64,000 nucleotides of DNA. Source: Pseudoflavonifractor sp. 60. GTDB taxonomy: Bacteria > Bacillota > Clostridia > Oscillospirales > Oscillospiraceae. The position numbers were made by a program, and so were the translations under genes. Position 1 is the first letter of the stretch, and every line of letters starts with the position of its first letter. Under the pieces are notes generated by a model, which saw only the letters and a program-made list of their open reading frames with translations, was not told the origin of the DNA and ran no database searches. The stretch is taken from the NCBI RefSeq assembly GCF_009911645.1, contig NZ_QWKI01000036.1, forward strand, positions 1 through 64,000, given 5' to 3'. Below, piece after piece: positions 20,593 to 44,325 of this stretch.

Positions 20593-20599
20593 GCGGAAC

Positions 20600-20797
20600 C
20601 CTTCCTGCTCGGTGCGTGATGGGCCCTTTTAAACCCACATTTCTAAAACGGGACGCCCACCTCACGGCGCGGCTTGCAGGCCTCCCGGCCCCCTTATGAG
20701 GTCAGCTGGACGTTGGAAGCAGAAAAACGCTGTGGAGGCGACCCACCTGCCATTACGTGCAGGTTTTAATCGGGTCCACACGGCCAGAGCGGGGTTA
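20600..20797 (+). ncRNA. ssrS: probable 6S RNA
   Basis: About 200 bases with no plausible gene. The ends can pair (CCTGCTC with GAGCGGG, then a GTGCGTG/CACACGG-type helix). The 3' half has GAGGCGACCCACCT, a GCAGG hairpin and TTTTAATCGGGTCC, a layout resembling the closing arm of 6S RNAs; the centre would be the open bubble that mimics a promoter. 6S RNA binds the vegetative RNA polymerase. Boundaries are approximate and the assignment rests on remembered motifs and foldability only. Confidence 0.55.
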
Positions 20798-20820
20798 TAA
20801 AAAATTTTTCCTTGCACTTT

Positions 20821-33010: not shown

Positions 33011-33730
33011 TTACATTCTGCTGGCCTCAAATTGCCGTACACCGGCAGTCAGTGAGTCATCTGTCACATGCACACATTTATCCATGGTGGTCTGGATACT
33101 GGCGTGACCCAGTAGCTTCTGAAGTACCTTTCCTGTTCTTCAACCGTGAGATACTTGATATCGCTGGGAACGCATACCGGCTTGGTGTATCTAACCCCCG
33201 TCCATAGGATGTTTAGGGATCATACCATTCATCACAGCAGAACGAAACATAGTACCCATTGCGATATGGGTTTGTCGGATAGTTGAGCCTGCGTAATCGG
33301 CATCCATTCCAATCAGAATTTTCTTGCAGTGCATGGGTCACACATCCCGCAGAAGCATTTTGCCAATTACCGACTGAACATTGTTTACATACCTTTCACA
33401 GTAGTTTCGGCAAGTATTAGGGGCCAAATCACCTATAATGTTCTCAATCCAAAATTCAAACCATGCGTCTACCGTCATATCAGGCGACGCAAAGCTTTCT
33501 TCGTTCGGCTCAGCACTCTGTCCTCCCTGCCTGTCGAGAACTCGTGCTTCCTCCAGCCAGTTTCTGGCTTCTGGAAGCTTTCGGAAACATTTGTCATGCC
33601 TTTTCCCTGCTTTGTCAACAAATCGTGCTAAGTATAACCCATCCTTTCTCTGGCAAATTCCTTTACACATTTTTTGCCTTTTAAGTTCTTTCCCATGAAT
33701 CGGCTCCTTTCTCGCAAGGAAAGAGAGCAC
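33011..33730 (-). pseudogene. decayed Tn916-type integrase
   Basis: On the minus strand residues 1-130 are intact (ICQRKDGLYLARFVDKAGKR, then TVDAWFEFWIENIIGDLAPN), the arm and core-binding domains of an ICE integrase. The frame then meets TGA after MLLRDV, resumes as a recognisable HIAMGTMFRSAVMNGMIPKH stretch, meets another stop, and jumps from an EEQER segment directly to KLLGHASIQTTMDKCVHVTD, so most of the catalytic domain is deleted. The reading stops at 33011. It cannot recombine DNA. Confidence 0.8.
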
Positions 33731-33801
33731 ACTACTACACCATGAGTATAGCAGATACCGCTCTCTTTCTCAAGCGTTATTTTGCCGCTCTTTTTATTAG
33801 G

Positions 33802-34008
33802 TCATATTATGAGTTTCTGTCCAATATAATCCTCAAATTCCTTGCGCTTTACCAACTTTTTTGAACCGACAAAAAGGACGAACGGACAGTTAGGCATACG
33901 CAGCATACTGTCTATTTTGTTAATTCCGATATTGCTGTATTCCGCAGCTTCCCTAATAGTTAAGGTCATTTTCAAATGAATTGGCGCTTTGTCAATGCTC
34001 TGTTCCAA
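33802..34008 (-). CDS. xis: Tn916-type excisionase
   Basis: 68 residues: LTIREAAEYSNIGINKIDSM is the Xis/AlpA-type HTH; FVLFVGSKKLVKRKEFEDYI is the wing and tail typical of Tn916 Xis. It lies directly upstream of the decayed integrase on the same strand, the standard xis-int order. With its integrase dead it is probably a relic. Confidence 0.85.
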   Translation of the reverse strand: MEQSIDKAPIHLKMTLTIREAAEYSNIGINKIDSMLRMPNCPFVLFVGSKKLVKRKEFEDYIGQKLII

Positions 34009-34461
34009 TTTAATGCCCCCCTCATTATAGCATTGAATCTATACAGCAATTTTGTACGGGAAAGCCACCGTCAGATCTCGTTTTCTATCCATATATCTAT
34101 CTGACTCCGGCGATGGCACTTCCCGCACACTATGTTATATTTTATTGTGCCGTATTCTCAGGCGGCAAGACCGCCCTACTGCTCACCCCCGGCACGGGAG
34201 TATGCAAGCCCGCCGACGGCAGACCGGCGGCGCGATACCGACAGATGGCGGCGGCAGTTGGCGAGGCTGCCCAAACCATTCCCACAGTATCCCCCTTTGA
34301 CCCTGCGATACGCAGGGGCCACCCGCTGCTGCCCGCTGGTCCCTTTTCACATCCGCTATCCGCTGTGGCGCAAGACTTTTCACCCGTTCTTTTTGGGTGT
34401 CACCTGATAGGGCCGGGAAGGTTAAAGGGAAAAAACAAGGGAAAACAAAAGGGCAAAAGAG
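34009..34461. other. gene-poor stretch
   Basis: No convincing gene. It contains short overlapping frames without ribosome sites and a Pro/Arg-rich open frame (34132-34407, plus) of the sort often seen at mobile-element edges. The end has an A/G-rich stretch (34423-34460) that could hold an attachment site of the satellite to the right. Confidence 0.5.
34423..34434. other. candidate attachment site (left)
   Basis: TAAAGGGAAAAA is repeated at 42908-42919, overlapping the stop of the satellite integrase. Twelve matching A/G-rich bases are weak evidence, but the two copies enclose exactly the phage-like gene set. Confidence 0.3.
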
Positions 34462-34503
34462 AACGCCCATAAGCCCCTTTCAAGGGAGGCTTGTGGGCGT
34501 TTG
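34462..34503 (-). terminator. terminator of satellite operon
   Basis: AACGCCCATAAGCC and GGCTTGTGGGCGTT form a 14-bp stem downstream of the zinc-ribbon gene on the minus strand. Confidence 0.65.
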
Positions 34504-34531
34504 TCTGATCCCAAATCACAGCCCCGGCTTT

Positions 34532-34738
34532 CTATTGGCTGGAGCGGGATAGGCGTCTCATGCGCACCATGCCCACAAAGCTCTCCTCCGTGCTGAAGCG
34601 GACCCCACAGACGGAACAGCAACGTATCCGGCGTATGGTCCCGTCCGACTGTTCTCTGGAATCATAGACCCGGCTGTCCTCCCCACACACCGGGCACATC
34701 CGGGCCGCACGGTATATCTTCAGGTCCTTGTTGGCCAT
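34532..34738 (-). CDS. small NrdR-like zinc-ribbon protein
   Basis: 68 residues with two CxxC pairs, [20 protein letters not shown] and [15 protein letters not shown], closely matching the zinc ribbon of NrdR (CPxCG..DSR..RR..C..CG.RF.T.E) but lacking the ATP-cone domain. Such stand-alone ribbons occur in phages. A DNA- or RNA-binding role is likely; the target is unknown. Confidence 0.78.
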
Positions 34739-34752
34739 AGACGCACACCCCG

Positions 34753-34965
34753 CTATTTGTGGTCACGCCCTAATAGATAATCCGTAGATACATCGAAGAA
34801 ATCAGCGATGGCCTCCAGTTTGCTTATGGTTGGCTCTTGCTCACCTTTCTCATACAACAGGATTCTGTTTTTGCCCATGCCACACAGCTCACTCAGAGCG
34901 TGCGCACTCAGCTGCTTTTGTTTCCGCAAATTCTGGAGACGTTTTGGAAATATCTGGTTGCTCAT
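34753..34965 (-). CDS. small XRE-family regulator
   Basis: 70 residues, a lone HTH domain ([20 protein letters not shown], then [18 protein letters not shown]). It is encoded just before the zinc-ribbon gene, on the same strand. The end of the sequence resembles the small XRE proteins at 61-630, suggesting a common family of mobile regulators. Confidence 0.83.
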
Positions 34966-35060
34966 AAAACATGCCCTTTCAGGATGTCTGAAATGTCGGA
35001 TAAGCTGACATTGTCATGCGTGCGCGTTACGGTGTCCGGAAACCCGCTTTTTCTGCTCTC

Positions 35061-35127
35061 ACAAATCTTACCATAGCTGTCTTTTTAGGGTCTCGCAAAT
35101 CTTGCCATAGCTGTCTTTTTAGGGTCT
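35061..35127. repeat. 34-base tandem repeat, two copies
   Basis: A unit ending CCATAGCTGTCTTTTTAGGG is present twice with period 34, with only two or three differences, followed by a partial third start (GCGAAATCT). It lies between the capsid gene and the XRE gene. Role unknown. Confidence 0.75.
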
Positions 35128-35184
35128 GCGAAATCTGCGGATAGTGAAGGGCGCACAGGCTCCTGCCCACGCGCCCCCCTTGGG

Positions 35185-36060
35185 TCAGCCCTTGCCCCCG
35201 TCTTCACCGCTGGGCGGCGTGACGACAGGCAGAGCCTGGTAATAGATAGCCTTCACCTTGTTGTCCAAGACAAAAGCGTCATAGACGATACGGCCCTCCA
35301 CCAGACTGCCGGAAATGCCGGGGGGATTGGCGTGGATGGTGTAGTCCTCCAGCTTCACGGGTGCGACGGTGGCGCAGGGGTGGGCCACCATAAAGCCGAA
35401 GCCGACGGGCAGGCGGTTGGCGGGGATCTTCTGCACAGTCATGCCGTCCAGGACGCCAATCACGCCCCGCAGGCGCAGCTCATTGCCCACGTCGGTCTCC
35501 ATGGTGATGTCCTTGCACTTCTTCATCAGCGCATAGGTGGCGGGGGTGACTACCAGCACACGGCCAGTCTCGGGGACCTCAGCGTCGTCCAGAGCCTGGG
35601 AGGCGGCCAGCACCTCGGTATAGATGTTCTCAGCGGTCAGCGCCTTGGCGTCGGGCTTGTGACCGGCCTTGCTGCACATCACGCCATAGGTGTAGGTGTC
35701 CACCTCGGGGATTACCACCTCCCGGTTCTGCCGGGCCAGAGCAGACGCCGCCGCCAGCTGCTGGGCGGTCTCGTCGGTGTCCAGCTTGTCAATGGCGAAG
35801 GTGAAGGAGCGGTCCTTCTTCAAGGTGAACTCCTCGGTGGTGGCGTCCAGGGCGGCCACCGCGCCGTAGCGGCTCCAGTTGCCCTCAGCAGGGCCGCTGC
35901 GGCCATAGTCGTTCATGCCGCTGGTGGTGATCTTGTACACCTTTACGGTGTGGGCGCCGGTCCAGTCGAAGTCCTGGTTGGTCAGCAGGCTTTTCTTGGA
36001 CTCGGTGGAAAACTGCTCGTCGGTATAGGGCTGGAATTTGGTTGCCAGTTCAATGGCCAT
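35185..36060 (-). CDS. phage major capsid protein
   Basis: 291 residues. Strong phage-capsid features: LLTNQDFDWTGAHTVKVYKI, SGMNDYGRSG, the internal TTEEFTLKKDRSFTFAIDKL, ARQNREVVIPEVDTYTYGVM, TGRVLVVTPATYALMKKC and ATVAPVKLEDYTIHANPPG. This is the HK97-fold coat group of siphophages that comes with a DUF4355 scaffold. The scaffold gene is directly upstream. No portal, terminase or tail gene is present nearby, so it belongs to a satellite or a stripped prophage. Confidence 0.9.
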   Translation of the reverse strand: MAIELATKFQPYTDEQFSTESKKSLLTNQDFDWTGAHTVKVYKITTSGMNDYGRSGPAEGNWSRYGAVAALDATTEEFTLKKDRSFTFAIDKLDTDETAQQLAAASALARQNREVVIPEVDTYTYGVMCSKAGHKPDAKALTAENIYTEVLAASQALDDAEVPETGRVLVVTPATYALMKKCKDITMETDVGNELRLRGVIGVLDGMTVQKIPANRLPVGFGFMVAHPCATVAPVKLEDYTIHANPPGISGSLVEGRIVYDAFVLDNKVKAIYYQALPVVTPPSGEDGGKG

Positions 36061-36074
36061 TCATAATCATCCTT

Positions 36075-36563
36075 TCAGCTTTTCGGCTTGAAGGCTGCTG
36101 CAAAGGGGTCCCCGTAAACGCTGCCCGTGCCGGTCCCAAACGCATAGGGGGGCGGGACCTCATCCGCCCGGGCTATGGCCGGGAACTTCTCCACAGCCAC
36201 GCCCACGGCGACTTTGAATTTCTCCACGTCGGAGCAGTCCAACACCTCCAGCAGGGCGGCGGGGAGTTTCTTGCTGTCCAGGTAGTCCCGACAGTCCAGC
36301 CGGGCCTCGCGGGCCTTCAAGGCCTTCTCACGCTCGTCCTCCGGGCTGGGCGCTGCCCTGTCAGCCCGATCACGGGCCAACCGCTCGGAGACGATCCGGT
36401 TTACATCGTCCTGTGTGAAGAGCTTTCCGCCCTCCCCCTTTGCGCCGGGGTCGGCTGTGGCGGCCTCCAGGTCCCGGGCGTGCTCCGTCATGATGGCGTC
36501 AATCACCGCCGCCGGCAGGGGCTGGCCGTTCACCTGGAAGTTCTTCAAAAATTCCTTGTTCAT
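36075..36563 (-). CDS. phage scaffolding protein (DUF4355)
   Basis: 162 residues: central charged helix LFTQDDVNRIVSERLARDRA with a following KALKAREARLDCRDYLDSKK, the DUF4355 scaffold signature. It would guide assembly of the capsid protein encoded 14 bases downstream. GGAGGTAATT precedes the ATG. Its leader carries a terminator/anti-terminator pair (36597-36690). Confidence 0.88.
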   Translation of the reverse strand: MNKEFLKNFQVNGQPLPAAVIDAIMTEHARDLEAATADPGAKGEGGKLFTQDDVNRIVSERLARDRADRAAPSPEDEREKALKAREARLDCRDYLDSKKLPAALLEVLDCSDVEKFKVAVGVAVEKFPAIARADEVPPPYAFGTGTGSVYGDPFAAAFKPKS

Positions 36564-36596
36564 AATTACCTCCGTTTTACGCCCTGAGTGGGGCTA

Positions 36597-36648
36597 AAAT
36601 AAAAACAGGCGCAGGAAACGATCATCAAATCGTTTTCCCACGCCTGTT
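36597..36648 (-). terminator. leader terminator (attenuator) before scaffold gene
   Basis: AACAGGCG pairs with CGCCTGTT and an inner GGAAACGAT/ATCGTTTTCC helix extends it; on the minus strand TTTTTATTTT follows. It lies upstream of the scaffold-capsid genes in the leader rather than after a gene, so it must be read through for capsid expression. Confidence 0.75.
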
Positions 36649-36690
36649 ATACAGACATTACCCAAAAGGGCGGTACTCAACCCTGCGCCT
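36607..36690 (-). promoter_or_regulatory. anti-terminator pairing in capsid leader
   Basis: CCTGCGCCT at 36682-36690 can pair over 9 bases with AGGCGCAGG at 36607-36615, which is one arm of the terminator. The two foldings exclude each other, the hallmark of an attenuator or riboswitch-like control. Confidence 0.55.
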
Positions 36691-36728
36691 ATTCTCTGGG
36701 TATATTTTACCACAGGGGTGATTATTGG

Positions 36729-36911
36729 TCAAGACTTTTCCGCTGTGCCGCAAGGCTTTTCTGGATTCTTGGTGGTCAGATAGACGCACAATTTCGGGGC
36801 TTGTGCGGTACTTTTCCGCACCCTTGCGCCGGGGTGATTTCGGAGGAGGGCCGCCAGATCAGCGGCCGCCGCCTCCTTTTCCTCGGGCTGGTATGTACAT
36901 TTCCACTTCAC
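36729..36911 (-). CDS. hypothetical 60-residue satellite protein
   Basis: A small basic protein (AAADLAALLRNHPGARVRKS, then LCVYLTTKNPEKPCG). Its start overlaps the preceding gene by 4 bases (ATGA), which supports translation. No domain is recognised. It could be a small regulator of the satellite. Confidence 0.6.
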   Translation of the reverse strand: MKWKCTYQPEEKEAAAADLAALLRNHPGARVRKSTAQAPKLCVYLTTKNPEKPCGTAEKS

Positions 36912-37120
36912 GCTGTAACTCTCTTTCCGCTGGGAAGCTTAATGGCACCTGTTCCAATTCCCCACAGGTATTCGATCCAGCATTGAGCGCAATCCCCAGT
37001 GCAGTCCTCCGACACCATACACAGATAGTGCTTGCGGTCCGGAGGGCACTGGTCTGCCAGAATCATGTGGGCGCATTTCAGAAACGCAGCTTCCTTTTCA
37101 GTAAGCATCATTGCTGGCAT
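36908..37120 (-). CDS. hypothetical cysteine-rich satellite protein
   Basis: 70 residues from the ATG at 37120, which has AAGGAGG in place; a longer frame to 37153 lacks one. Contains six cysteines, with CMVSEDCTGDCAQCWIEYLW suggesting a metal-binding or disulfide knot. It is translationally coupled to the next gene. Function unknown. Confidence 0.68.
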   Translation of the reverse strand: MPAMMLTEKEAAFLKCAHMILADQCPPDRKHYLCMVSEDCTGDCAQCWIEYLWGIGTGAIKLPSGKRVTA

Positions 37121-37182
37121 TTGACAAATCCTCCTTGACTTCCTTTCCTCCACCCCATAGAATAAGGGTGGGCCTTGTGTAG

Positions 37183-37347
37183 TTAGTTGCTCCGCTGGGT
37201 CCCCTTGCCCCCGTCAGCTTTCGCAGAGCTGGCGGGGAGCTCTTTTTTCAAATCCCCAGACGATTGGGATTTTGAGGGTCCGCAATCGCAGACCTCCCGG
37301 GGGTCCAGGTGCGCCCCGCAGTGGGGGCAGACGCGGTAGTAGCTCAC
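37183..37347 (-). CDS. small zinc-ribbon protein
   Basis: 54 residues from a GTG at 37347 that overlaps the stop of the preceding frame (GTGA). The N-terminus YRVCPHCGAHLDP with CDCG makes a zinc ribbon; the rest is a charged disordered tail. It is too short for usual gene callers. The coupling and the cysteine pattern make it believable. Confidence 0.6.
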   Translation of the reverse strand: MSYYRVCPHCGAHLDPREVCDCGPSKSQSSGDLKKELPASSAKADGGKGTQRSN

Positions 37348-37529
37348 GAGTTCTCACCCCCCTCTGGGGTATACAGCATCCCGACATTGCCACCGCCCAG
37401 GTAGATAATACGTGCTCCCAGCTCCTGAGCCGTGGTCAGGATACAGCCGCCCTCGGGCTGATCCACGTAGCGGTCTGGGCAGTCACGCTCACAGGGCTAC
37501 CCATCCAGGGGACATATCAGTTGGTCCAT
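37344..37529 (-). pseudogene. small phage gene interrupted by in-frame TAG
   Basis: Starting at 37529 the minus strand reads MDQLICPLDG, then TAG (37497-37499), then continues in the same frame as PCERDCPDRYVDQPEGGCIL and a GARIIYLGGGNVGMLYTPEG tail to a TGA. A single base change (CAG or CGG to TAG) explains it. The intact downstream frame and conserved cysteines argue for recent inactivation or for amber readthrough. Confidence 0.6.
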
Positions 37530-37648
37530 AATCATTTTCTCCTTTCGTCAATTTAGGCCCACATGCGCAAACCGTTGTGGCACAGCGTGTGGTCAGGTGT
37601 GGTCAGGGTTTTCCACGGGCCTTAAAATAATTCCTCGCGTAGAAGGGA

Positions 37649-40048
37649 CTATGAAATGGCTGACCACGGCTGACCACACCGCCATTTCATTCCTCGGATG
37701 AACCAAAAACGGTTTGCCTCTCGTCCAGTCCCATTGGGCCGCTTGCGTTTGATAATCGTGTGGGCTTCCATACGCTGCTTCCAGGCAGTCATAGCCTCGG
37801 CGCACTGGCCGTTACGGACACACCAGTTTTGATAGGCCTGATAGGCCTCCTCGGTCCTGATCTCCCCCATAGGGTCAGGCTCCATCATCTCGGCCACGAA
37901 GCGGGCAATCTTGTCACTGTCCCTCTGATAGTCCGCCGTAGCGGCCTGCACTGCCGGGGGCGGTTCCAGTCCGGTCTCCTGCATCATCCACAGCCCTTCC
38001 AGACACCAGTTCAAAAGGCCGCTGAGGTTGGCCGCCTTGCGCAGCTTCCGCTTTAGTCCCTTGTCCTGTTCCGCCTCGGTGAAGTGCCGTTCAAAGGGGA
38101 TCACCTTCACCCGGCCAGAATCGAAGATAGTGGGGTCTGTGACCTTGGGGCGGTGGTTGGTATTGATAAACAACTTGAACTGCGGGGTAAACTCGAAGCT
38201 GTTTTCATTGAGAAACCGGGCTATAATGGTGTCCCGGCCCGTCAGGGTTTTGACCAGAGCGGCGGACAAGATCATCTGCTTTCCTGGCTCGGAGATATTC
38301 ACCACCCGCGCTCCGGCCAACCGTGCGATATCCTCAGTGGGTGCGCTGCTGTTGGCCTTGTCCTTCTGGGCGATAGTCTCAGGCCGTGCCGCTTTCCCAT
38401 AGCCGCCCTGGAGGGCCATATAGGTCTCCATGATGGTCCCCTTGCCGTTGCGGGTAGTGGGGCCGTACAGCATGAAGAAGCATTCCTCCGACGTGTCCCC
38501 GGTCAGGCCATAGCCCAGCGCCTTTTGGAGATAAGCAATCTTCTCAGCGTTGTCCTGCATCGCGTCTGCCACGGTCTTTTCCCACAGGGGGGATTTTGCG
38601 GCGGGGTCATAGTTGGCCCCAGCAATCAGCGTCAGCATATCCGCCGGGGAATGGGGATGGAATTGCCGGGTGCGCAGGTTCAGTGTCCCATTCAGACAGT
38701 TGAACAGAAAAGGGTCTTTGTCGAAGTCCGTCAGCTTGACGGGGTAGACGCTGGCGGCGTCTTTCAGCACAGTTTCCCGGTTATACCGTTTCTGCCAGCG
38801 CTCCACAAACTCCCGGTAATCGTCCCGCAGCGCCCCATCAGGGAGGCCCAGCGCGTACAGTACCAGCGAATCCGCAAGGCGCTTGCACAGCTCCATAGTG
38901 CGCAGATTGCCGGGGTCCGGTTCCCACACCTTCCCACTGTAGACAAACCACTTTTTGCGCTCCGGGACATACCGCGCCACATCCTTGTACCAGTCTGCGA
39001 ACAGATTGCCATTGCCGATATCGTTCCAGCCATAGCGGTCGTTTTTCTCCGGGTGTAGGTCTGCCAGCTTCAGCCCACCGGCGGCGGTAGGGACGGTGAT
39101 TCGGTCCGCCTTGCGCTGAAAATGAGCTCGGGGGTCATAGCCCTGTCGGGCGGTGGCTATGGCGTTCTGGATGGTGATAGCTCCGTAGGTGCTGCCACTT
39201 TGGGGGCGGTCCCACTTCTTAGGGCGGAACAGGCCGGATTGTCGAAAGAGCTTGTCCAGCCTGGCGGCGTCCTTGTTGGTCCAAAATGCCAGGGCGTTGC
39301 ACAGGGCTATATCAGCCTCGGAGTGGGACTTATAGCCGCTGGTATCCCCAGCCCACAGGGCAGAGAATTGAGCGCCATTCCTGGCCCGCTGGGCCCGCTG
39401 GATCAGTGCCAGGTCATCCAGGTCCACCGCGCCGCTGCCGCCGATCTCCGCGCCCCAGTCCAGCGGAGCAGGAGGAGGTGTGGGCCTCTGAGCCTGGGGT
39501 CGGACCATGTACTTCTCCAGCACCGCCCGCAGCTGCTCCCCACGCTCCTCCAGGTCCAGCCCGGGGGTGAGGGCGTTCCCGGTAATGGTGACATACTTCT
39601 GTGTCGCGCCGGCTATGTAGACCTCCAGGCCGGCCTTCTGGTTGTTGATGTAGTACCGGGCCTTGTCGTACTGGAAACTACTCGGCACGGTGAACAGGAT
39701 ACGCAGGCCGTGGCCGCTGGGGGAAAACTCCGTGTATGCCTGCATGGTCTCCATGATGTCCAGGGCCATTGGGGACAGCTCCCCGGCCTCGCTGACGCAG
39801 TGGTCAATGTCGATAGCGCCCAGGCTGCCGAAGACGCCCACACCGATACCGTCATACCGGCCCCGCTCCAGCGCCTCCAGAGCCACGGACAGCGGGGTAA
39901 AGGTGGTGGGATTGGTGCTCTGGGCCTTGCCCCCAGTCCGGGGGTTATAGGGGACCTTTGTCTTTTTACCGCCCCTCTCCTCATACCGCCAGCAGCAGAA
40001 CATAGCCTGTTCCCGCAGCTGGGCGGGGAGATTGCCGGTATCGCTCAC
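37649..40048 (-). CDS. phage D5/P4-type primase-helicase
   Basis: 799 residues. The N-terminal ~180 residues form an AEP-like primase/NTP-binding domain (GVFGSLGAIDIDHCVSEAGE with the acidic pair; SPSGHGLRILF). The C-terminal half is a superfamily 3 helicase with Walker A GPTTRNGKGT near residue 530 and LFINTNHRPKVTDPTIFDSG downstream. It would initiate and unwind replication of the element. It overlaps the upstream gene by 4 bases. Primase-helicases of this kind are standard in satellites and small prophages. Confidence 0.92.
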   Translation of the reverse strand: MSDTGNLPAQLREQAMFCCWRYEERGGKKTKVPYNPRTGGKAQSTNPTTFTPLSVALEALERGRYDGIGVGVFGSLGAIDIDHCVSEAGELSPMALDIMETMQAYTEFSPSGHGLRILFTVPSSFQYDKARYYINNQKAGLEVYIAGATQKYVTITGNALTPGLDLEERGEQLRAVLEKYMVRPQAQRPTPPPAPLDWGAEIGGSGAVDLDDLALIQRAQRARNGAQFSALWAGDTSGYKSHSEADIALCNALAFWTNKDAARLDKLFRQSGLFRPKKWDRPQSGSTYGAITIQNAIATARQGYDPRAHFQRKADRITVPTAAGGLKLADLHPEKNDRYGWNDIGNGNLFADWYKDVARYVPERKKWFVYSGKVWEPDPGNLRTMELCKRLADSLVLYALGLPDGALRDDYREFVERWQKRYNRETVLKDAASVYPVKLTDFDKDPFLFNCLNGTLNLRTRQFHPHSPADMLTLIAGANYDPAAKSPLWEKTVADAMQDNAEKIAYLQKALGYGLTGDTSEECFFMLYGPTTRNGKGTIMETYMALQGGYGKAARPETIAQKDKANSSAPTEDIARLAGARVVNISEPGKQMILSAALVKTLTGRDTIIARFLNENSFEFTPQFKLFINTNHRPKVTDPTIFDSGRVKVIPFERHFTEAEQDKGLKRKLRKAANLSGLLNWCLEGLWMMQETGLEPPPAVQAATADYQRDSDKIARFVAEMMEPDPMGEIRTEEAYQAYQNWCVRNGQCAEAMTAWKQRMEAHTIIKRKRPNGTGREANRFWFIRGMKWRCGQPWSAIS

Positions 40049-40353
40049 TCAGCCCCGCCTCCATACAGATAGTTCCACTTGGCCTTAGCGTCCTGGTGCT
40101 CCTGGTACTGCTTCACCAGCTCCTCCAGGTTCAGGGTGATGGAGTGCCTGACCGGGGTGCCGATCTTCACGACGGTGTAGCTCTGGCGCTCGCACAGCCG
40201 CCCGACCAGCTCCGTGGAGCTCTGGCCCACCAGCTGGGAGGCCCGCAGTTGCTCCTTGGTCACGGGGACGGTGATGGCCTCCTCCTTGCCCGTCCGGTGG
40301 TTGTGGGCCAGCACAAGGAAGGACCTCACATAGATTACAATCGTGTTTCTCAC
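40045..40353 (-). CDS. hypothetical 102-residue satellite protein
   Basis: The GTG at 40353 is chosen as start because it overlaps the AlpA stop (GTGA) and has GGAGG 9 bases upstream; the open frame extends to 40386. No recognised domain (ITVPVTKEQLRASQLVGQSS, SITLNLEELVKQYQEHQ). It is translationally coupled on both sides, between the AlpA-like and primase genes, and so is probably a replication accessory. Confidence 0.72.
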   Translation of the reverse strand: MRNTIVIYVRSFLVLAHNHRTGKEEAITVPVTKEQLRASQLVGQSSTELVGRLCERQSYTVVKIGTPVRHSITLNLEELVKQYQEHQDAKAKWNYLYGGGAE

Positions 40354-40547
40354 AGCAGCATACCTCCGTTGTTTTTGTCCAGCCACGCTTGCAGCGCAGC
40401 ACGGTTAATGCGGACGTTCCGCCCCAGGCGGATAGCGGGGAAGTCCTCCCGGTGGGTCAGCTGGTACACCGTATCCCGGCCCAGCTGAAGCAGCTCCGCC
40501 GCCTGAGAGACGGTCAGCAGCATCGGGTTTTCCTTGATGTTCGGCAT
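40350..40547 (-). CDS. AlpA/excisionase-like HTH protein
   Basis: 65 residues: LTVSQAAELLQLGRDTVYQL, then DFPAIRLGRNVRINRAALQA, a MerR-like winged HTH of the AlpA/Xis group. It probably acts as excisionase or activator of the satellite. It is first in the long early operon (AlpA, small protein, primase) and starts 5 bases after the Cro-like gene. Confidence 0.85.
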   Translation of the reverse strand: MPNIKENPMLLTVSQAAELLQLGRDTVYQLTHREDFPAIRLGRNVRINRAALQAWLDKNNGGMLL

Positions 40548-40551
40548 GGTC

Positions 40552-40749
40552 TCAGCTCCTTTCGATGATGTCCGCGCCCAGGACAGCCGCCAGCTTTCGG
40601 GCCGTCTCCGCAGAACAGCTTTTCCCGGTCTTGACAGCGGAGATAGTCACCCGGCTCACCCCGGTCTTCTCCGCCAGCCGCTTCACACTCAGGTCCTCTC
40701 TGGCCAGCGCCGCAGCAAACGCCACTCGGTCTATTCGCATTTTGTTCAC
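40552..40749 (-). CDS. Cro-like XRE regulator
   Basis: 65-residue lone HTH (LSVKRLAEKTGVSRVTISAV, CSAETARKLAAVLGADI). It is divergent from the large repressor at 40885; together they make a classic CI/Cro-type switch. An AT-rich 135-base gap holds both promoters. Confidence 0.85.
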   Translation of the reverse strand: MNKMRIDRVAFAAALAREDLSVKRLAEKTGVSRVTISAVKTGKSCSAETARKLAAVLGADIIERS

Positions 40750-40884
40750 CTCCTTTTACTTTTGACTGCACGCTGATAGTATCACAGTCAAAAGCAAAAG
40801 TCAAGATTGTTTAACAGTCTTTTGTAAAATTTTTTGTTGCGTTTTTCATTTTGCCGTGGTATGCTATTTATGGAGGTGTATAGA

Positions 40885-41499
40885 GTGACTACTGGACAGC
40901 GCATAAAGGAGGTACGGAAAGCGGCCGGAATGACACAAAAGGAGCTAGCCGGAAAACTTGGCTTAGCCTATCAAACTCTCGCTCAGTGGGAAAATGATCT
41001 ACGCAAACCGAAAATTGAGACGCTGGAACGGATATCTATTGTTCTTAGGGTACCAGTTAAGCAAATTTTGGATGAACCGTCTTGGTTACACGAAAATCTT
41101 CGGTTTTATCGGGATATTGATGGCGTATCACGTAATAAGTTATCGGCAGAAACTGGCATTCCTGTTTCTATAATTAAGACCTATGAAGATCCTTGCAGTA
41201 GCCGATTTATTACTGAAGAATATTTGCAGAAAATAGCGGATTATTTTCAAGTACCGCACGAACGAGTGCTTGGGTATTCGGCCACTTATGAGGATATGGT
41301 GAAGCGATTCTCGGAAGACAAAGCACCCTCGACAACCACTTCTGTCACCACACTCCCTGAGGATGTGCAGCGCGTGGCAAGCTCCATGGAGCAGATGAAT
41401 GAAGAGGGCCGGGGGAAGGTGGTGGACTACGCCGAAGACCTGGAGGCGTCAGGCCGATATAAAAAACGTGGTGCGGCTAGAATGGGCAAAGAGGCGTAA
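40885..41499 (+). CDS. double-HTH XRE repressor of the satellite
   Basis: 204 residues from a GTG at 40885 with GGAGG at 40872-40876; longer frames lack a ribosome site. Two HTH regions are visible: residues 1-60 (MTQKELAGKLGLAYQTLAQW) and about 72-130 (GVSRNKLSAETGIPVSIIKT), then a linker and a helical end. It is probably the master repressor controlling the early operon; no LexA-like autoprotease motif is seen, so induction may depend on another protein. Confidence 0.85.
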   Translation: MTTGQRIKEVRKAAGMTQKELAGKLGLAYQTLAQWENDLRKPKIETLERISIVLRVPVKQILDEPSWLHENLRFYRDIDGVSRNKLSAETGIPVSIIKTYEDPCSSRFITEEYLQKIADYFQVPHERVLGYSATYEDMVKRFSEDKAPSTTTSVTTLPEDVQRVASSMEQMNEEGRGKVVDYAEDLEASGRYKKRGAARMGKEA

Positions 41500-41743
41500 C
41501 CAGGAGCGCCCCCAGCGGCGTTTTCCTGTTCCAGAGGGCAAATAGAAGCGCCCGGAATCCAATTCCGCTCATGGTGTCCAAGTTGGACACTGTAGCAGAG
41601 CAAAAAAAGAACCGCGCAAGTGCGGCTAACACTTACGCGGTCAATGTGCACAAATACCAGGACAGTCAATCAAGGCACCAGTGCGCCTATTATTATAGCT
41701 CAGGCGTGCCGTGGTGTCAAGAATACAGGAGGTAATTAACTCT

Positions 41744-42910
41744 ATGGCACGGAAAAACGCAAAGGGCAGCGGGACGATCCGGAAAAAGACAGTCACCCGC
41801 AACGGCAAGCAGTACGAATACTGGGAGGCAAGAGTCACCACGGGGCGGGACCCTGGCACCGGCAAGCAGCTCCAGCGCTCTTTCACAGGCAAGTCGCCGA
41901 AGGAGGTCCGGGAGAAGATGCAGGTGGCGGCGGTGGAGGTCAACCAGGGCACCTACACGGCTCCGCAGCGGCTCACCGTAGGGCAGTGGCTGGACGTGTG
42001 GGCGTCTGACTACCTGGGCAGTGTAAAGCCCGCCACAGCTTCAATTTACCGGGGCAACATCAAGAACCACATTAAGCCCGCGCTGGGGGCTGTCCGCCTC
42101 GATCAGCTCCACCCCCACACTGTCCAGGGATTTGTCAACGGCTTAGAGCTGTCCCCGGCCTCTGTCCAGCTGGCCTATAAGGTGCTCCACATGGCGCTGG
42201 GGAAGGCTGTGGAGCTGGGATACATTCCCCGAAACCCGTCGGAACGGTGTGAGCTCCCCCGGCTGGATCAGAAAGAGATACACCCGCTCGACGATCAACA
42301 GGTAACCGCGCTGCTGGCCGCCGCCAAAGGGAGCGATCTGGAGCACCTTATCACCGTGGCCCTGTTTACCGGCCTCCGCCTGTCTGAGCTGCTGGGCCTC
42401 ACCTGGAGCGCTGTGGACTTCCAGCGGGGCACCATCCACGTCAATAAGCAGCTGGCCAGACTGGAGCACAGAGCGGCGGGGTTGTTCATCTCACCGAAAA
42501 GCGGGAAAGCCCGCACGATCACCGCCGCCCCGTCCGCTCTGGCCGCGCTGAAACGTCAACAGGCCAGGCAAGCGGAAATGCGGCTCCGGGCAGGGCCTGT
42601 GTGGGATAATCCGCACAGACTGGTTTTTACCTCCGCGCTGGGCGGACCGCTGGAGCACTGGACGGCAGAAAGCGGATTCAAGCGCCTTACTGGCCTCGCC
42701 GGTCTGGGGGGTGTGCGCTTCCATGACACCCGCCACACATACGCCGTCAACGCAATCAGGGCCGGGGACAACATCAAGGCCATTCAGGGCAATCTTGGCC
42801 ATGCTACTGCGGCCTTTACTCTGGACCGTTACGTCCACTTCACCGAACAGCTCCAGCGGGACAGCGCGGACCGGATGGAGGGCTTCATAAAGGGCGTTCT
42901 GAATTTATAA
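41744..42910 (+). CDS. int: satellite tyrosine integrase
   Basis: 388 residues from the ATG at 41744 with CAGGAGG. Arm-type AP2-like N-terminus (GSGTIRKKTVTRNGKQYEYW), core-binding domain (LTVGQWLDVWASDYLGSVKP) and a complete catalytic set: LFTGLRLSELLGLTW, HDTRHTYAV, GNLGHATAAF and nucleophile Tyr in DRYVHF. It integrates the 34.4-42.9 kb element. Confidence 0.93.
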   Translation: MARKNAKGSGTIRKKTVTRNGKQYEYWEARVTTGRDPGTGKQLQRSFTGKSPKEVREKMQVAAVEVNQGTYTAPQRLTVGQWLDVWASDYLGSVKPATASIYRGNIKNHIKPALGAVRLDQLHPHTVQGFVNGLELSPASVQLAYKVLHMALGKAVELGYIPRNPSERCELPRLDQKEIHPLDDQQVTALLAAAKGSDLEHLITVALFTGLRLSELLGLTWSAVDFQRGTIHVNKQLARLEHRAAGLFISPKSGKARTITAAPSALAALKRQQARQAEMRLRAGPVWDNPHRLVFTSALGGPLEHWTAESGFKRLTGLAGLGGVRFHDTRHTYAVNAIRAGDNIKAIQGNLGHATAAFTLDRYVHFTEQLQRDSADRMEGFIKGVLNL

Positions 42911-42919
42911 AGGGAAAAA
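42908..42919. other. candidate attachment site (right)
   Basis: The second copy of TAAAGGGAAAAA, overlapping the integrase stop codon, a common attP position. See the left copy at 34423. Confidence 0.3.
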
Positions 42920-43243
42920 GAAAGAGAAAACGGCATAAGAAAACCGCCGTACCCCTTGCAAATACTGGGGTTAGGCGGGCTATATCCCGTATCCCTGCGG
43001 TACAGGATGATGCGATTGCTCCGCCGCGCTTCAGGTGCTGCCCGCGCCGGTCAATGGCCCTGGGGTCCTTTGATATGATCGTTTTAACGGAACGGGGATA
43101 AGGGTTCACCTCCTCCCCTGCAATCCCCGTTCCGCAGGCAGTCTATGCGTCCAAAGCCATGCCGCAGCAAAGTCTCACTTGCATACTGACTATGAGCGGG
43201 AGCCTGTCCCACTGTTTATCAAGGTACAAGGAGGATAGAGCTG
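42920..43243. other. gene-free flank of the satellite
   Basis: No gene is supported. A large stem-loop stands out: GGAACGGGGAT at 43090 pairs with ATCCCCGTTCC ending near 43134 around a 23-base loop. It may belong to an RNA or to the element end. Confidence 0.5.
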
Positions 43244-43510: not shown

Positions 43511-43680
43511 AGTAAGACCTCCGAAAATCTGAATTTAATTAGACTCAGATCTTCGAGGTGGGGCCCGGGCGGAATGACTGGCCTTGGTGTGGACAATTTG
43601 AGGTGGGTTTTGAAAATTGTGACATTTCGACCCAACTCGACAAAATAAACCGCCAGCGACTTTCCCGGACGCGAAAAAAG

Positions 43681-44325
43681 ATGGCCCAGTTCCTTTCGGA
43701 ATATTGCGGCGAGTATGGGCAGGGCGCCTGCCGCTGTGCCAATCGGGTCAACTACGCGATACAGAATCTGATCTTTCGGATCGGAGAATTTGACGGCAGC
43801 GTCCTCAGCCACACACCCAGGGAGCTGACCTTCAAACTGGTGCGGGACACCAGATTCAGCCATGACAAGTCCCCTTACAACCCTGCGTTCCGGGCGTACA
43901 TCTCGGCCATGGGAAAGCTGCCCATCCCGGTGGGCTACTATGTCATGCTCAAACCGGGCGGACAGTCTTTCCTGGGCGGCGGCCTGTTCGCTGATATGTT
44001 CAAGGACGCCACCAGGATGGTGCGGGATTACATTTCGGAACACGGCGGCGAGTGGGAGACGATCCTCGCTGCCCCGGATTTTCAGGTGTACTTTACCGTA
44101 AACGGTACTGCCCTGAAAAATGTACCGGCTGGCTATGAAAAGGACCATCCACAGGCCAAATATCTGAAGTATAAGAGCTGGTATCTGGAATATCCAGTCC
44201 AAGACAACGAACTGTTGGATGGTGATCGGTTCCTATCTAAAGCAGCGGATGTCTTCCACCGGATGAAGCCGTTTAATGATTACTTGAACAAGGCGCTTAC
44301 GGGCTTCAAAATGCCGGAGAGATAG
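43681..44325 (+). CDS. DUF2461 protein, N-terminus altered
   Basis: At least 214 residues (the frame is open from 43558). The core FKLVRDTRFSHDKSPYNPAF, IPVGYYVMLKPGGQSFLGGG and RMVRDYISEHGGEW is typical DUF2461 (TIGR02453). The expected first ~40 residues are not recognisable, and no good ribosome site precedes 43681, so the gene may be 5'-truncated. It is divergent from the truncated HTH gene, and both cut ends face 43510-43680. Function of the family is unknown. Confidence 0.68.
   Translation: MAQFLSEYCGEYGQGACRCANRVNYAIQNLIFRIGEFDGSVLSHTPRELTFKLVRDTRFSHDKSPYNPAFRAYISAMGKLPIPVGYYVMLKPGGQSFLGGGLFADMFKDATRMVRDYISEHGGEWETILAAPDFQVYFTVNGTALKNVPAGYEKDHPQAKYLKYKSWYLEYPVQDNELLDGDRFLSKAADVFHRMKPFNDYLNKALTGFKMPER

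Follow-up and report, generated by a model that had tools for sequence, protein, structure and literature searches.

The 64,000-nucleotide stretch of the Pseudoflavonifractor sp. 60 genome analysed here (the window) carries an integrated, intact phage satellite, which is a real member of a widespread satellite lineage. The satellite spans positions 34,301 to 43,003, from one attachment (att) core to the other, with a unit of 8,692 bp, and encodes a complete major capsid protein (MCP) together with a capsid scaffold protein. Portal, terminase and tail families were absent from the 18 window proteins scanned (ten of them in the PHROG scan), and models of the large terminase subunit (TerL) and the portal were also blank, as a first-pass annotation made from the DNA letters had proposed. 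Judging by these genes, the best-supported reading is that the element would build its own, perhaps smaller, capsid and obtain the rest of the particle from a helper phage.

An integrated element with precise ends

The first-pass annotation had placed the element at 34,532–42,910. The element itself was confirmed, but its ends were corrected by two copies of an att core with the consensus CCCTGCG(A/G)TAC (Table 1). The flanks were used to search for an empty site in 60 relatives, the window's own genome included; the search from the DUF2461 flank was unsuccessful, and the left-flank search found the sites in two genomes of the same genus. Contig C3 of G072 (L132) has segments of the two flanks next to each other. 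Across the junction, the joined flanks align with local alignment scores of 390 on this contig and 379 on contig C9 of G053 (L133), versus only 43 and 47 for an element-internal control. As both empty sites align through the junction, the satellite entered an existing site cleanly. The window element is not helper-embedded, since its site occurs uninterrupted in these two genomes and no phage gene was recognised there. The D5 repeat (34423/42908) was also considered as att, and was rejected because it lies inside the true ends; it is probably an arm-type repeat.

From the right end, the gene order is integrase and CI-like repressor, followed on the opposite strand by the Cro-like and AlpA-like proteins, a 113-aa protein, the primase-helicase, small genes, scaffold, MCP, a helix-turn-helix (HTH) regulator and a zinc-ribbon protein. 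The reading frames are open, and a plausible ribosome-binding site precedes several of them, scaffold and MCP included. The integrase, CI/Cro-like switch, AlpA-like protein and primase-helicase named at first sight are all present and open, with Pfam or PHROG matches. The capsid gene, described as complete, indeed aligns end to end with a phage MCP, its N-arm not lost, and belongs to an HK97-type family. Its fold model is poor (mean predicted local distance difference test, pLDDT, 55). The scaffold assignment is supported by PHROG 1793, whereas the DUF4355 label given to it is not, the Pfam match (E 0.016) falling below the cut-off. No head maturation protease, connector, small terminase subunit (TerS) or HNH protein was found among the window proteins scanned, the relatives not having been scanned one by one for these. 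The discrete integration with its own integrase and att sites, the small genome without a full virion gene set, the divergent CI/Cro-type switch, the AlpA/Xis-like protein and the element's own primase-replicase are all features of phage-inducible chromosomal islands (PICIs).

A conserved unit in Clostridia and relatives

When a collection with one genome per species was scanned with the MCP profile, 103 stretches matched and were resolved into 53 loci. Loci with enough flank mostly keep an integrase, cI, cro or an AlpA-like gene, a primase or AAA gene, the scaffold and the MCP, in the same order and orientation; as the MCP served as search bait, its own conservation is partly a result of this choice. 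By record title, the hosts include Lachnospiraceae, Oscillospiraceae, Acetobacterium, Vallitalea, Erysipelotrichaceae and Anaerosphaera. A census was then based on 65 satellite loci (the window, three circular genomes, 50 genome-contig loci and 11 others), many of them cut by contig ends; L051–L053, L062, L064 and L065, being fragments or distant, were left out. The MCP is present in all 65, the scaffold in 60, a tyrosine integrase in 45 and a primase in 25, and 16 match the AAA model. A sigma-70-like factor follows the MCP in 23 loci, a zinc-ribbon protein in nine, a PHROG 36-type regulator in six and a phrog_615-type adaptor in seven.

TerL and portal models matched one satellite locus of the 65, L040. 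The same TerL model matches 15 of 17 phage loci, 12 of which were used to train it (L091, L168 and L171 are independent), and the portal model 14 of 17. The phrog_2 TerL family occurs in 39 of the 51 genomes or records, with a strong match beside the satellite MCP only in L040; two weak matches were located at a distance, about 10 kb in G012 (E 3e-4) and about 60 kb in G018 (E 7.5e-4). From integrase to late regulator, 28 integrated loci span 7,835–9,637 bp, the exceptions being L040 (13,567 bp, with extra head genes) and the short L046 (5,065 bp). Scaffold and MCP are common to the window and L054, and the integrase and replication genes of the two differ. Some members are flanked by guaA, rpsI or tuf, as scanned on cluster representatives.

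Among 293 genomes of the class, 58 match the MCP profile and only four, including the genome of the window, score above 430 bits, the satellite range; ten of the 60 relatives match, with G000 and G064 in the satellite range and a broken copy in G057. The satellite is, therefore, widespread but not frequent per genome. Because the same plan recurs across many Clostridia, exploitation of helpers looks established rather than like a broken leftover.

Tandem arrangements were also seen: a second, different integrase-bearing element (cI, AlpA-like, integrase, AAA) adjoins L013 (13075–16478) and L034 (12226–17000). A large serine recombinase replaces the tyrosine integrase upstream of cI in L019, L028, L042 and L044, as recognised by Pfam for L042 and by cluster for the others.

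Capsid lineage and selection

Identity to the closest phage MCPs (Streptococcus phage Javan268) is about 50%. Among phage loci with this type of MCP, those that extend far enough have TerL and portal upstream, L174 and L175 showing neither. In a narrower tree, 54 satellite MCPs form a single clade (100/100) apart from those of 10 phages, with 22 of 86 rows left out as long-branch, truncated, duplicate or distant; a quick tree of all 86 rows gives the satellite clade a Shimodaira–Hasegawa-like approximate likelihood ratio (SH-aLRT) of 95, with long-branch warnings. The wider tree (71 rows), whose bootstrap had not settled, holds a core clade of 48 at 100/97: 41 plain satellites, four with TerL (L040, L197, L199, L200), L201 with TerL and portal beside the MCP, and two of unclear status (L203, L204). 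Below the core, towards the base, the satellite L210 groups at 90/75 with L212, which has a portal, and L209, which has both TerL and portal. The proposition that all satellite MCPs form one clade without phages consequently fails in this tree, with L209 and L212 beside L210 and L201 inside the core. L040 and L197 stand in one place, L199 and L200 in another and L201 in a third, which implies at least two gains or losses of the packaging module. The order in L040 (MCP, connector, TerS, TerL, portal, sigma factor) is unlike the phage order, which suggests gain of the module.

Ratios of non-synonymous to synonymous substitution rates (dN/dS; Nei–Gojobori) against close relatives are 0.118, 0.158, 0.131 and 0.168 for the MCP (four pairs) and 0.202 and 0.185 for the scaffold; these low values indicate that the capsid genes are kept for function. 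Single pairs gave 0.220 for the integrase, 0.533 for the 113-aa protein, 0.633 for h60 (the small protein ahead of the scaffold) and 0.152 for the zinc ribbon (dS 1.64), while the HTH gene was saturated.

Circular genomes in virus data

Two scans of IMG/VR yielded 12 and then 79 loci, the second drawn from the best 80 of 263 relatives. Twelve contigs are circular (L058, L061, L063, L184, L186, L191, L194, L196, L202, L205, L208 and L215), as judged from terminal repeats of 28–127 bases or tandem copies, with units of 7,611–10,429 bp. None of the 12 has TerL or portal, 11 have an integrase (not L205) and 11 have h60 (not L184). In L061 an 8,513-bp unit is present twice in tandem, with no difference between the copies, as in a circular or concatemeric form. 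TerL or portal occurs in six of the 44 loci nearest the satellites (L054–L063, L183–L216), namely L197, L199, L200, L201, L209 and L212: both follow the MCP in L197, and TerL follows it near a contig end in L199 and L200. h60 is absent from all 35 more distant loci (L217–L251), of which 24 carry TerL or portal.

L201 (IMG/VR 3300010167_001502) is a 24-kb contig with TerL before and portal after an MCP that falls within the satellite clade; it may represent a phage or a large satellite.

A small protein and a leader RNA ahead of the capsid genes

The h60 family (about 50–70 aa) precedes the scaffold in 49 of 64 satellite loci versus none of 22 phage loci (50 of 65 in the census). With tblastn, its consensus matched none of 50,697 phage records even at a threshold of E 1, and members given to Pfam, PHROGs and NCBIfam matched no family. 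The predicted structure is beta-alpha-beta-beta (mean pLDDT 71). Going by these searches, h60 is apparently satellite-specific, and its fast evolution would fit contact with a changing partner.

Between h60 and the scaffold sits a leader with two hairpins. Of 64 loci, 47 have the motif of the 5' arm of hairpin I, GC[AG][TC]GGGAA, no more than 1 kb upstream of the MCP; these loci contain it 43 more times in 968,220 bp, and phage loci 27 times in 396,189 bp. A motif-free scan for a hairpin plus U-tract detected 34 of 51 leaders versus 12 of 101 control windows. Over 40 rows, hairpin I forms a 13-pair helix with 92.3% pairing, compared with 44–64% for slid versions, and two-sided changes affect six pairs in 51 cells, against a shuffled mean of 16.4. 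These rows were picked by the 5' motif, so the 5' arm is constant by choice and the 3' arm free; in the latter, U stands opposite G at three positions in 11, 15 and nine of the 40 rows, a better fit to a coding-strand RNA than to a palindrome in DNA. Hairpin II, with GG[AGC]CGT[TA]AA and a matching 5' arm, lies ahead of the ribosome-binding site in 23 loci; its short motif is present in 29 of 61 loci, against a background of 0.011 per 800 nt, two of the 29 (L035 and L099) having it elsewhere.

A model of the leader, R1, has a single match in the host genome (4.38 Mb) at a threshold of E 0.001, and it lies in this leader. It had no match at this threshold in the phage loci searched (best 0.0038, in L092), and its match in L093 is the leader of the L059 satellite. 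On 21 satellite loci outside the training set, R1 detected five at E up to 0.001 and seven up to 0.01; it misses many satellite loci, some of them cut short, and also matches the reverse strand of the same hairpins more weakly (20.1 versus 48.7 bits in the window). No Rfam family exceeded its gathering score on the leader. The two-hairpin leader of the capsid operon thus appears, from these comparisons, to be satellite-specific. The hairpin resembles a terminator and stands directly ahead of two genes that leave scant space for a promoter, an arrangement suggestive of regulated read-through.

A satellite inside a prophage capsid gene, and the search for a helper

In L059 (10001–10837 and its flanks; G049:C1, also L092 and L093), the MCP gene of a prophage is interrupted by the satellite, while the other head genes of the prophage are kept. 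Its TerL, minor head and scaffold genes were recognised by family; TerS, portal, connectors and a gene of tape-measure size by similarity, order or length. At the break, the MCP halves share ATGGACATT in a WIDPMDI motif, and the frame, read by eye, is kept across the core. L059 is a helper-embedded arrangement with a non-lambda phage, providing a ready-made helper context, and the only relative seen embedded in a prophage late gene.

A helper prophage with matching tail and terminase had been suggested as a check on the first-pass annotation; none could be assigned in the host genome. Its phrog_2 TerL matches are two only (C267 and C23), one lying close to the end of its contig and the other on a contig of 3.6 kb, and head genes were not recoverable from either contig.

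Proposed mechanism and rival explanations

As a whole, the gene content is best explained by a satellite that forms its own shell and borrows portal, terminase and tail from a helper, a reading considered rather probable. The satellite would excise at the CCCTGCGRTAC core, whose copies mark the ends, through its integrase and AlpA-like protein, consistent with the circular relatives, and would replicate with its own primase-helicase, as the family of this protein suggests. Presumably late in infection, scaffold and MCP would be expressed behind the structured leader RNA; a shell would then form on the satellite scaffold around a helper portal, be filled by the helper terminase and receive helper tails. 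Late transcription, of the satellite or of the helper, is probably timed by the regulator encoded downstream, which is an Ogr/Delta-like zinc ribbon in this element and a sigma factor in many relatives; Delta of P4 is a possible model. From the unit size, the shell would be small, possibly with a triangulation number (T) of 3: if the shells of phages with this MCP are assumed to be T=7 and to hold about 35–38 kb, T=3 would hold about 10–11 kb and T=4 about 15–16 kb, and circular satellites of 7.6–10.4 kb would fit T=3, on scaling from genome length only. A more ambitious version is possible but doubtful as a package, namely that a Clostridia-wide lineage builds a complete T=3 mini-shell from its own MCP and scaffold around a stolen portal, that capsid synthesis is gated by a satellite-only two-hairpin leader (a regulated terminator or a read-through switch), possibly along with the satellite-only h60, and that a portal/terminase module gained or lost more than once would link MCP-only satellites to capsid-forming PICIs (cfPICIs).

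Several observations weigh against an own shell. The scaffold was not matched in five of the 65 loci (L010, L038, L042, L046 and L047, L038 being cut by a contig end), and the MCP is split in L043, L048 and L136, so that some copies are decaying. No compatible helper turned up in the host genome (with no match to the PF05135 connector, phrog_64 portal or PF05065 capsid), and the L059 prophage MCP is about 25–30% identical to the satellite type, which makes portal compatibility uncertain. Among known systems, the Ccm protein of SaPIbov5 fills only the pentamers of the helper shell (PMC8569155, in part), and the MCP gene of Gram-negative PICIs is not required for transfer (PMC10111431, in part).

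The first of these precedents, a satellite-encoded homolog of a capsid protein, directly favours co-assembly, in which satellite MCP and scaffold would mix with the helper capsid protein and force a smaller shell, as Ccm does with phi12. Prophages with an MCP of the same superfamily do coexist with the satellite in some carrier genomes. However, Ccm is without the long N-arm and unable to assemble shells by itself, and a separate scaffold is missing from phi12 (PMC8569155, in part), while the MCP here is full length and accompanied by a scaffold in 60 of 65 loci. Moreover, the phage-type MCPs of the same genomes are distant, ten of them scoring 19–82 bits against at least 430 for unbroken satellite copies, with one nearer at 216 bits (G039/L087). 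This distance makes mixed shells less likely, and co-assembly is judged unlikely. The capsid genes could instead lower helper yield, as decoy shells or a portal sink, or back up an interrupted helper gene, with satellite DNA travelling in helper capsids. The dispensability of the Gram-negative PICI capsid genes, the packaging of EcCICFT073 DNA at phage length (PMC10111431 and PMC6092414, both in part) and the residence of L059 in a prophage MCP gene agree with such an accessory role. It is nevertheless quite improbable, given that the narrow genome size suggests a small capsid, that purifying selection acts on scaffold and MCP alike, and that so few loci have an MCP without a scaffold match.

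A decaying prophage, the random deletion product of a full phage, had been named as the outcome that would refute the proposal. The genes are phage-derived and three MCP copies are broken, yet the unit is conserved in many lineages with the same order, exact ends, circular forms and selection on its genes, and the 54 satellite MCPs stand apart from the ten phage MCPs at 100/100; relatives showing random deletion were not found, and this explanation was rejected on ends, trees, selection, census and circles as very improbable. A domesticated host capsid (an encapsulin-like compartment or a gene transfer agent) has next to nothing to recommend it: a weak encapsulin similarity (Linocin_M18 E 0.0077; NF041155 E 1.4e-4) reflects the HK97 fold, and the mobility of the element (integrase, circular relatives, empty sites) and the phage MCP as best family led to its rejection.

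Features of the element and its surroundings

Table 1. Positions and supporting evidence for the features of the satellite (window coordinates)
Feature	Position	Strand	Evidence
att core copy CCCTGCGATAC, capsid-side end	34301-34311	+	joined-flank alignment to empty sites
Zinc-ribbon protein, 68 aa, NrdR/Ogr-Delta-like, candidate late regulator	34532-34738	-	PF22811 E 1.1e-9; PF04606 E 5.1e-6
HTH regulator, 70 aa	34753-34965	-	HTH_3 E 1.4e-12; homolog in L054
MCP, 291 aa, HK97-type by family	35185-36060	-	phrog_422 E 2.1e-64; PDB profile 8e16 MCP E 1.2e-9
Capsid scaffold protein, 162 aa	36075-36563	-	phrog_1793 E 3.4e-5; phrog_172 E 8.9e-5; alignment of 16
Leader hairpin II, AGCCC..GGGCGTAAAA, immediately before scaffold ribosome-binding site	36575-36595	-	motif across loci
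Leader RNA hairpin I, 5' arm GGCRYGGGAA, U-tract after	36597-36646	-	covariation; model R1
h60, small protein ahead of scaffold	36729-36911	-	family in satellite loci; model pLDDT 71
Small open reading frame, 81 aa	36908-37153	-	homologs in L004, L030
Small open reading frame, 54 aa	37183-37347	-	homologs in L001, L003, L044, L061
D5-type primase-helicase (D5_N, NrS-1 pol-like HBD), 799 aa	37649-40048	-	PHROG 1829 E 2.7e-165
113-aa protein, function not assigned	40045-40386	-	no Pfam over cut-off, no PHROG; homologs in L004, L006, L054, L055, L061
AlpA/excisionase-like HTH_17 protein, 65 aa	40350-40547	-	PF12728 E 5.9e-16; phrog_66 E 1.2e-11; Pfam AlpA only E 0.11
Cro-like HTH protein, 65 aa	40552-40749	-	HTH_3 E 6.3e-9
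CI-like repressor, 209 aa	40870-41499	+	HTH_3 E 5.8e-20
Tyrosine integrase, 388 aa	41744-42910	+	PF00589 E 1.9e-24; phrog_1 E 8.2e-66
att core copy CCCTGCGGTAC, integrase-side end	42993-43003	+	joined-flank alignment to empty sites

The target site is a conserved sequence (window 34146–34312 plus 43067–43225), uninterrupted in G072 and G053 and with a partial copy in G000:C277. It matched no Rfam family and may be an RNA of a new type or a repeat. The left flank (33338–34008, minus strand) bears a Tn916-type excisionase (E 6.2e-33) beside a truncated N-terminal part of an integrase, the remnant of another mobile element. On the right, the stretch matching the DUF2461 open reading frame (43558–44325, plus strand) contains about 330 additional bases in relatives, and the window gene may, from this comparison, have undergone a deletion or fusion. 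A 6S RNA gene was located at 20599–20799 (plus strand).

Comparison with known satellite systems

Delta is a late regulator of P4, and CpmAB of SaPI1 has a scaffold-type function. The satellites described here resemble P2–P4 (Sid, Delta) and SaPI1 in having a scaffold-type function and an Ogr/Delta-like or other late regulator; the helper MCP is used in those systems, whereas here the satellite supplies the MCP. Sid of P4 likewise provides a scaffold-type function from the satellite (PMC10690885, in part).

SaPIbov5, a cos-type Staphylococcus aureus pathogenicity island, is, like the window element, a Gram-positive satellite encoding a phage capsid homolog. It differs in that Ccm has no long N-arm and no scaffold accompanies it (PMC8569155, in part), while the MCP of the window is of full length and has one, and so is not of the Ccm type.

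Capsid genes in Gram-negative PICIs have already been described (PMC6092414 and PMC10111431, in part). These islands share the order integrase, AlpA, primase and late zone, with the MCP as the commonest late gene, and 11capE, which sits in the capsid gene of a lambda-type helper and bears a capsid gene of its own, is comparable to L059 (PMC10111431, in part). They are found in enterobacteria with lambda-like helpers, unlike the present lineage, which occurs in Clostridia and relatives and has a different MCP family, a leader RNA and a scaffold. Among the titles and abstract openings listed from the open-access library searched, none describes capsid-gene satellites in Clostridia, and a search there for satellites with a sigma factor matched no paper; the available portion of PMC12946183 holds nothing on satellites with capsid genes.

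The closest comparison is with cfPICIs, defined by their own MCP and by tails given by the helper (PMC10690885; see also PMC11389934, both in part). Integrase, regulators, primase and own MCP are common to both. The expectation that cfPICIs keep more head genes was borne out as a contrast for 64 of the 65 loci, the window included, which lack TerL and portal matches; L040, with connector, TerS, TerL and portal, is the exception. As relatives of the same MCP lineage (L040, L197) carry portal and terminase, the origin of cfPICIs becomes testable. If the own-shell reading is true, the satellite shell must dock on a foreign portal and terminase, and which head contacts have to match becomes testable as well. 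The results also draw attention to satellites of Clostridia that have been little described and that have cultured carriers suited to induction, such as Acetatifactor muris DSM 23669 (L029), Parablautia intestinalis D8-82 (L034) and Acetobacterium fimetarium DSM 8238 (L040). Overall, capsid genes in satellites are already known from SaPIbov5 Ccm, Gram-negative PICIs and cfPICIs, and the new element is the variant with MCP and scaffold in Clostridia: in descriptions so far, satellites either take over a complete capsid or produce almost the entire head, and this family stands in between, with shell and scaffold.

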